DNA of 64,000 nucleotides, taken from assembly GCF_014863405.1 (NCBI RefSeq), contig NZ_JACZZA010000001.1, positions 558,001 through 622,000 on the forward strand. The letters run 5' to 3'. The translations under genes were made by a program, and so were the position numbers. The notes under the pieces were generated by a model. It saw nothing but the letters and a program-made list of their open reading frames with translations, was not told the DNA's origin and made no database searches. Below, one piece after another: positions 58,117-60,105 of the stretch. Position 1 is the stretch's first letter, and every line of letters begins with the position of its first letter. This DNA comes from Dyella acidiphila (GTDB taxonomy: Bacteria; Pseudomonadota; Gammaproteobacteria; Xanthomonadales; Rhodanobacteraceae).

Positions 58117-58974
<858 letters not shown>

Positions 58975-59002
58975 GTTGGAACCTCCTGAAAGTGGGGTCA
59001 GC

Positions 59003-59029
59003 TTAGCACTCGGGTACTTTGAGTGCTAA
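59003..59029. promoter_or_regulatory. Perfect CIRCE element (HrcA operator) in the rpoH leader
   Basis: TTAGCACTC and GAGTGCTAA are separated by exactly 9 bases, identical to the CIRCE consensus bound by the repressor HrcA. It lies 28-55 bases upstream of the rpoH ATG, between the promoter at 59065-59093 and the ribosome binding site. Confidence 0.92.
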
Positions 59030-59064
59030 CGGCGACGGGAGTTCCGGCGCCATTTATGTACCGA

Positions 59065-59093
59065 ATAGTACACGAATGGGTCGGCCTTGTCCA
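59065..59093 (-). promoter_or_regulatory. Candidate sigma-70 promoter of rpoH
   Basis: On the minus strand TGGACA (59093-59088) and TACTAT (59070-59065) are spaced by 17 bases, giving a start near 59058. The CIRCE element is then inside the leader at about +30 to +56. The local sequence is AT-rich compared with its surroundings. Confidence 0.6.
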
Positions 59094-59240
59094 TTCCCAT
59101 GGTTGCCCCGGGAAGGGGTTTCAAGCGTGACTTTTGGATTGGACGGCGGCTGGGGGATCGACTGTGCGGGGTGGCGCCTTATGGCACCGTGTAACAACAG
59201 TAAAATCGTCGGCCGATTACCCGCTGGATGAACCGCACGG

Positions 59241-59399
59241 ATGAGCTACGACTTGATGGTCTTCGACGTTGCCGGCGCCCCTCGTGACCCCGCCCAGTTC
59301 CTGGGCTGGTATCGCGGCCAGACCAACTGGAACCTCGCAGAACTGCGCTGCACCGCCGACACGACGACGGCCCGGCTCAGCCAATGGTTCGCCCAGATG
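59241..59399 (+). pseudogene. 5' fragment of a MSYDLMVF-type hypothetical gene
   Basis: The frame starts 'MSYDLMVFDVAGAPRDPAQFLGWYRGQTNW' and runs to 'LSQWFAQM', which matches in my memory the N-terminus of a conserved family of about 150-200 residues ('MSYDLMVF...WF.EM...FPPMNGP'). After codon 53 the sequence turns into a low-complexity Arg/Ala run that is simply the antisense of ung; the frame stays open to 59501. So the rest of the gene is missing. Its 3' end and the end of ung overlap by about 20 bases, pointing to a deletion junction near 59400. Confidence 0.6.
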
Positions 59400-60105
59400 A
59401 CCCGCCGAGTTCGGCGCGCGGCGGCAGCGACCAGTCGATCGGCGCCTTGCCGTGCTGCTCCAGATACTTATTGGCCGCCGAAAAATGGCCGCAGCCGATA
59501 AAGCCGCGATGTGCAGACAGCGGCGAGGGATGCACCGATTTCAACACCGCGTGGCGGCGTGTATCGATCAGCTGGCCTTTGCGCTGCGCATATGAACCCC
59601 ACAGCATGAACACGATGCCTTCGCGCTCGCGGTTGAGCGCATCGATCGCGGCATCGGTAAAGCCTTCCCAGCCTTTGCCCTGGTGCGAGGCAGCCAGGCC
59701 GCGCTCGACGGTGAGCACCGCGTTGAGCAACAGCACGCCACGATCCGCCCACGGCGTAAGACAGCCATGGCCCGGCGGGGCGAACCCCAGGTCGCGCTCG
59801 ATTTCCTTGAAGATGTTGACCAGCGACGGCGGCGCCGGCACGCCCGGCCGCACCGAAAAACACAGCCCATGCGCCTGGTTGGGACCGTGATACGGATCCT
59901 GGCCCAGGATCACCACGCGCACCGATTCGAACGGCGTATGCGCGAAGGCATTGAAGATTTCCGGACCGGGCGGATAGATCACCTTGCCGCTGCGCTTCTC
60001 CGTGCGCAGGAAATCCGCGAGCGCGCGCATCTCCGGACGCTGCAGGTAATCGCCGATGCGTTCTTTCCAGGAGGGTTCGAGCTTGACGCGTTCTTCTTCG
60101 GTCAT
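59377..60105 (-). CDS. ung: Uracil-DNA glycosylase
   Basis: Ung removes uracil from DNA in base-excision repair. The 242-residue protein has the water-activating loop '[22 protein letters not shown]' (D70), '[23 protein letters not shown]' and the minor-groove loop '[15 protein letters not shown]'. The family normally ends a few residues after '[11 protein letters not shown]'. Here there is an extra '[13 protein letters not shown]', the last part of which is read from the antisense of the truncated gene at 59241. Its ATG overlaps the stop of the double-receiver gene by 4 bases (ATGA), so they are coupled. Confidence 0.95.

Follow-up and report, generated by a model that had tools for sequence, protein, structure and literature searches.

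A CIRCE operator in register with a predicted sigmaE promoter upstream of rpoH in Dyella acidiphila and related bacteria

The gene for the heat-shock sigma factor sigma32, rpoH, is found on the minus strand of the stretch of Dyella acidiphila DNA analysed here (64,000 nucleotides, referred to below as the window), which belongs to a genome of 5.07 Mb in 28 contigs (G000). In profile searches its open reading frame scores 409.9 bits against the RpoH model TIGR02392, an equivalog-level score given the cut-off of 323.1, and 431 bits against NF005143. Upstream of it, on the same strand, lie ung, a response-regulator gene, ftsX and ftsE. An ORF of 86 amino acids on the plus strand (window 59241-59498) is divergent from rpoH and overlaps the 3' end of ung. 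A Pfam search gave no match for it, and it is possibly a gene remnant or a chance reading frame. The elements of the rpoH leader are collected in Table 1.

Table 1. rpoH and the elements of its leader, in window coordinates.
Feature	Position	Strand	Basis or remark
rpoH (heat-shock sigma factor sigma32, 285 aa)	58117..58974	-	ATG at 58974; profile scores
Shine-Dalgarno AGGAGG of rpoH	58982..58987	-	read off the sequence
CIRCE operator, predicted HrcA site	59003..59029	-	exact match; also in relatives' rpoH leaders
Predicted sigmaE (RpoE) -10, TCAAA (TCnnA)	59018..59022	-	in CIRCE left arm and spacer positions 1-3
Predicted sigmaE (RpoE) -35, GGAACT	59040..59045 (GGAAC 59041-59045)	-	register with CIRCE in leaders
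sigma70-type promoter, TGGACA-N17-TACTAT	59065..59093	-	promoter scan, 9/12 matches

The element nearest to the gene, apart from the Shine-Dalgarno sequence, is an exact CIRCE, TTAGCACTC-N9-GAGTGCTAA, 28 bp from the start codon. A sequence-only reading of this DNA had already pointed it out, and the claim is borne out: the site is the sole match in the window at up to three mismatches, none was found in 100 shuffles of the window, and about 2e-5 exact matches are expected by chance per 5.07 Mb at the window's composition. The operator is also kept in the aligned rpoH leaders of relatives, being exact in 11 of the 12 genomes of the genus sample, with a difference of one base in G060.

The same reading had described the sigma70-type promoter upstream of the CIRCE, which is present. 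To compare leaders we aligned 32 of them, namely the 30 best rpoH matches (one family, our genome included) together with L004 and L073; L004, from Dyella flagellata of the same genus, is the same contig as L094 (G307), so that 31 of the 32 are distinct. The promoter pair TGGAC...TGTAC.AT recurs in 31 of the 32, and the distance from its -10 to the CIRCE drifts from 35 to 59 nt. The operator has no fixed register with this promoter. Two further elements are seen in this region. A palindrome, TGTAC-N6-GTACA (window 59057-59072), overlaps the sigma70 -10; it is exact in 14 of the 32 leaders and present in all 32 in a relaxed form (GT[AT][CT]A), and it could be the operator of some regulator or merely a conserved promoter start region. 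Upstream of the sigma70 promoter stands CTTGAAA (window 59119-59125), which resembles a sigma32 -35. CTTGAA recurs in 13 of the 32, chiefly in leaders from the same genus, and reading by eye for a sigma32 promoter of the form CTTGAAA-N11-16-CCCCAT at rpoH gave no good CCCCAT -10.

A second conserved block, absent from the earlier list of elements, is seen in the alignment: GGAAC, located downstream of the sigma70 promoter and upstream of the CIRCE. It lies 16-17 nt from the start of the CIRCE in 31 of the 32 leaders. Since this distance is fixed whereas the other drifts over 35-59 nt, the CIRCE is in register with GGAAC and not with the sigma70 promoter. A wider sample was drawn from the best 80 named loci with rpoH relatives, which gave 78 usable leaders; calling CIRCE at up to two mismatches and accepting C or G at arm position 7, we find it in 43 of them. 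Of the 41 named CIRCE leaders with enough upstream sequence, 19 have GGAAC at 16-17 nt, compared with 0.07 on average, and never more than 2, in mononucleotide shuffles. It is lacking, in any -35-like form in register, from 17 of the 43, mainly betaproteobacterial, and six ambiguous leaders were set aside.

The block has the form of a sigmaE -35. Our genome reads GGAACT-N17-TCAAA, and the E. coli rpoH leader (L285) reads, at equal spacing, TGAACT-N17-TCTGA, a stretch that we take to be E. coli rpoH P3. In E. coli, P3 is a known sigmaE promoter and GGAACTT is given as the RpoE -35 (PMC8103513). The nGAACT-N17-TCnnA geometry of P3 is thus the same as here; the difference is that the E. coli leader has no CIRCE (8 mismatches in the best match) and a profile search of the E. 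coli control genome gave no HrcA match. We predict at least two promoters for rpoH, the nearer of sigmaE type and the farther of sigma70 type.

The predicted -10 makes the overlap with the operator explicit. TCnnA begins 17-18 nt after GGAACT, on the final two bases of the left CIRCE arm, so that an A is required at position 3 of the CIRCE spacer. Such an A is present in 88 of the 94 class composites described below, in which spacer positions 4-9 are mixed, and among named leaders it is found in 19 of 20 with GGAAC in register versus 4 of the 17 that lack any -35-like match. The CIRCE sites of groES leaders make a useful comparison. There are 24 sites of the TTGGCACTC type, of which 22 precede groES (L002 included) and two, L212 and L220, precede rpoH: none of the 22 has A at spacer position 3, and both rpoH sites do. 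Among 30 further groES leaders, two have the A and none has GGAAC in register.

The exact composite of GGAAC and CIRCE is widespread. It is found in 12 of 12 genomes of the genus sample, in 69 of 125 family genomes by row count (56 of the 125 are without it), in 126 of 398 genomes and 35 of 98 genera of the order sample, and in 94 of 369 genomes and 72 of 272 genera of the class sample, with 275 of the 369 without it; the pattern allowed no mismatch, so these counts are lower bounds, and it set the arm letters, so that arm identity within them is no evidence of conservation. A reversed pattern gave no match in either the order or the class sample. We retrieved 60 of the composite loci (30 of the 126 order matches and 30 of the 94 class matches), and in all 60 the composite is found 18-132 bp ahead of rpoH, in the same orientation. 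The composite element is carried by L018, a contig labelled Verrucomicrobia with a gammaproteobacterial-type rpoH (60% identity); the label or the bin is probably wrong.

The arms themselves vary in part of this range. Arms of a Lysobacteraceae type, TTAGCAGTC-N9-GACTGCTAA, a name that we infer from the named loci L005, L007 and L008, are frequent at rpoH in part of the order. The change, G for C at arm position 7 and/or the opposite C for G, is seen at L116-L133, L139-L160 and L255-L284, at rpoH and variably at groES. We considered whether these arms could be fully explained by the better sigmaE -10 (GTCnnA) that they create, and rejected it, as some genomes are changed in the right arm only; groES leaders also vary between C and G at the same base, and the better -10 accounts for only part of the pattern. 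It is no less likely that HrcA has relaxed its preference, and a shifted preference is possible too. Of the 30 variant-arm loci that we retrieved, 28 lie before rpoH; where these lack GGAAC, most have (T/C)GAACTT in the same place, like E. coli P3 (for example L137, L139, L140, L142-L155 and L157-L159), and at L162 GGAAC is present and out of register. The locus L161 (G080) carries TTGGCAGTC-N9-GACTGCTAA near neither rpoH nor groES in the stretch retrieved, the groES site of that genome being elsewhere (L215). This may be a further HrcA target.

The genome encodes both of the regulators that such a site calls to mind. There is a single hrcA (C24:307366-308022; PF01628, 224.6 bits in a profile search), whose product scores 319.3 bits against TIGR00331 (cut-off 197.2) and matches the HrcA structure 1stz, that of the Thermotoga protein. 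It heads a cluster with grpE, dnaK and dnaJ, which has no CIRCE at up to four mismatches and in which a sigma32 promoter, sought by eye, was not found with confidence; we accordingly make no claim for the negative-feedback half of a cascade. In this cluster a gene for a TMEM175-type potassium channel lies between dnaK and dnaJ (L114 1455-2096, minus strand; PF06736, 115.8 bits). A genome-wide search at up to three mismatches returned two CIRCE-like sites, the one at rpoH and one before groES-groEL (L115), where the identities of GroES and GroEL were confirmed and where a sigma32 and a sigma70 promoter can be read by eye. The groESL site is a likeness within the same genome, an HrcA-type operator before a heat-shock gene. 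As for sigmaE, there is one RpoE equivalog (TIGR02939, 315.9 bits, cut-off 236.15), whose alignment with E. coli sigmaE 1or7 runs over its length and takes in gtvrsrifrareaid, a stretch of region 4; a match to 2h27 was obtained as well. Its own locus contains no GGAAC-N16-18-TCnnA.

The presence of a CIRCE at rpoH follows that of hrcA. In the 78 named leaders hrcA and CIRCE occur together in 40, both are missing in 30 (Vibrio and enterobacterial loci and Haemophilus among them), hrcA occurs alone in five and CIRCE alone in three; the Fisher probability of 5e-13 for this table overstates independence, because clades were sampled repeatedly, and most of the comparisons here carry no correction for phylogeny. 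Seen from the other side, CIRCE is absent from 30 of the 33 named hrcA-less leaders. One of the five hrcA-only exceptions is Xanthomonas pisi, which has a degenerate site, and for the three CIRCE-only exceptions no hrcA was found in genomes of 1.7-2.9 Mb; two of the hrcA-positive calls are weak or partial (L035, 46.6 bits, and L074, 26.4 bits at a contig edge). The composite behaves in the same way, with hrcA in 40 of 40 composite genomes, taken one per family from 40 families, versus 23 of 40 composite-free genomes. Among the 30 named leaders for which both hrcA and CIRCE are missing, nGAAC(T/C)T with TCnnA at 17-18 nt is present in 19, of which one (L027) is far upstream and doubtful, and such a sigmaE-like pair was not seen in the other 11.

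Some leaders look intermediate. The rpoH leader of Xanthomonas pisi (L005) keeps GGAACTT and GTCCAA and has a degenerate left CIRCE arm, CCGGCAGTC, as if the operator were decaying and the promoter kept. In two leaders where hrcA was not detected, the sigmaE -10 region reads TTTACACTC (L017, a Methylophaga MAG) and CACACTC (L044, Dickeya), each like a leftover left half of a CIRCE; these are possible traces of a lost operator.

Taken as a whole, the interpretation in the sequence-only reading is partly supported. Control of rpoH by HrcA, which it had proposed, is well supported by these comparisons, since hrcA is in the genome, the site is conserved and CIRCE at rpoH tracks hrcA. That reading had also considered a CIRCE at rpoH unusual, and in this it did not hold up: by comparison of leaders, the site is widespread among the beta- and gammaproteobacteria that have hrcA, and it was already in print for Geobacter sulfurreducens, where a CIRCE upstream of rpoH is a predicted HrcA target (Rodionov et al. 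2004, PMC545781, Table 8). HrcA at rpoH is thus of a known kind with a published precedent. As far as the available part of that paper goes, the Geobacter operator has the same exact arms and spacing and lies at -51 from the start codon; unlike here, further CIRCE sites are found at both groESL and hrcA-grpE-dnaK-dnaJ, and no overlap with a sigmaE promoter is described (PMC545781). A sigmaE-type factor at rpoH has a precedent of its own in a betaproteobacterium: the SigE of Bordetella bronchiseptica transcribes the Bordetella rpoH (fam) promoter in vitro, in line with what we propose, and a word search of the full text found mention of neither CIRCE nor HrcA (PMC3490749).

The overlap itself, a CIRCE on a sigmaE promoter at rpoH, is not described in the titles and abstract openings of the open-access papers that we searched, and an earlier mention of CIRCE at rpoH for this group may be contained in published regulon studies. 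Permina and Gelfand have reportedly treated the regulons of sigma32 and of HrcA in beta-, gamma- and epsilon-proteobacteria, and the RpoH and RpoE regulons of Xylella are the subject of further papers.

How, then, might the site work? The sequence-only reading held that HrcA at the CIRCE mainly represses the sigma70 promoter and that heat derepresses rpoH, with GGAAC of no importance. The sigma70 pair is indeed nearly constant in the alignment, and the 17 named CIRCE leaders without a GGAAC-like match fit this account. It is nevertheless unlikely, given that the operator keeps its distance from GGAAC and not from the sigma70 -10, that the A at spacer position 3 accompanies GGAAC and is missing from the 22 groES sites, and that the GGAAC register recurs far beyond the family. 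An effect without consequence is also conceivable, the CIRCE being a relic or a low-affinity site with no regulatory role. The degenerate left arm of Xanthomonas pisi beside intact sigmaE elements would suit such a reading, as would the fact that no HrcA effect on rpoH in this group is described in the open-access listings that we searched. We find it barely credible for a site with all 18 arm bases intact in 11 of the 12 genus genomes, recurring with GGAAC in 72 of 272 class genera, absent from 30 of the 33 named hrcA-less leaders and accompanied by hrcA in 40 of 40 composite genomes.

Structured leaders control rpoH in E. coli, and the repeat might act mainly as RNA, with a leader hairpin that sets the stability or translation of the rpoH mRNA as a thermometer or stabiliser. 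We folded two versions of the leader, one beginning at the sigma70 start and the other at the predicted sigmaE start. The CIRCE hairpin forms in the sigma70 version (z = -2.9 relative to shuffles), but this hairpin does not pair with the Shine-Dalgarno sequence, which the predicted folds of both transcripts place in a separate short stem, partly paired with C's close by, and the shorter transcript from the predicted sigmaE start has the right arm alone and so forms no CIRCE hairpin. A thermometer was rejected on these grounds. Half-changed arms that break the pair (C/C or G/G) in 12 of the 94 class composites, together with the tie between CIRCE and hrcA, also argue against an RNA role, and we regard it as very improbable.

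We think it likely instead that HrcA occludes the sigmaE promoter of rpoH, with the sigma70 promoter supplying basal expression. What the analysis shows is that the elements are present in the sequence, that they hold a conserved register, that they lie in front of rpoH and that they go with hrcA; from this we infer the binding of HrcA, the binding of sigmaE, the transcription starts, the exclusion and the logic. The nearer promoter would be a sigmaE promoter and the counterpart of E. coli rpoH P3, with a start predicted near 59011. HrcA on the CIRCE would then cover about -16 to +9 of this promoter, so that the bound repressor should exclude sigmaE-RNA polymerase. In this scheme GroE keeps HrcA active; the repressor lets go once GroE is taken up with misfolded protein in the cytoplasm, or in direct response to heat, and envelope stress frees sigmaE. 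Full transcription of rpoH would be reached only when the two releases coincide, and the recovery of GroE would repress the gene anew. The farther sigma70 promoter would provide basal rpoH, and HrcA, sitting about 29-55 nt past the start of that promoter, could lower this level by acting as a roadblock. Because the CIRCE is in register with the sigmaE promoter, the relevant signal probably arrives through sigmaE as well as through HrcA, and one short stretch of DNA probably lets envelope stress and internal protein damage jointly set the timing of rpoH.

Two published results bear on these steps. In Campylobacter, GroE stimulates HrcA binding (PMC8533110). In Stenotrophomonas maltophilia, after 10 min at 42 C, rpoE was up 5.9-fold and rpoH showed no significant change (PMC6479208). 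The second result counts against a simple form of the coincidence logic, and it bears likewise on the simple cascade of the sequence-only reading, in which heat would inactivate HrcA and rpoH would then be transcribed. The CIRCE leaders without a GGAAC-like match also indicate that HrcA control of rpoH can occur without the overlap, and hence that such control is wider than the fused form.

A more far-reaching suggestion concerns the origin of the arrangement. In Gammaproteobacteria with hrcA, a group taken here to include the betaproteobacteria, the ancestral rpoH P3 may be the fused HrcA operator and sigmaE -10, through which rpoH would detect the coincidence of envelope damage and cytoplasmic protein damage, and the P3 of E. 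coli and other enterics may be what remained after the loss of hrcA and of the dyad. We put this forward tentatively, as an idea that falls somewhat short of probable.

Textbook accounts of heat-shock control in Gram-negative bacteria take E. coli as their model, a species whose control genome gave no HrcA match. Should the fused element function as proposed, many beta- and gammaproteobacteria join three regulators (HrcA, sigmaE and sigma32) at one promoter, and E. coli is the reduced case. It would also predict in which genomes the expression of rpoH depends on HrcA, and the integration of envelope and cytoplasmic damage would be testable by single-base changes that separate the bases shared by the operator and the -10.
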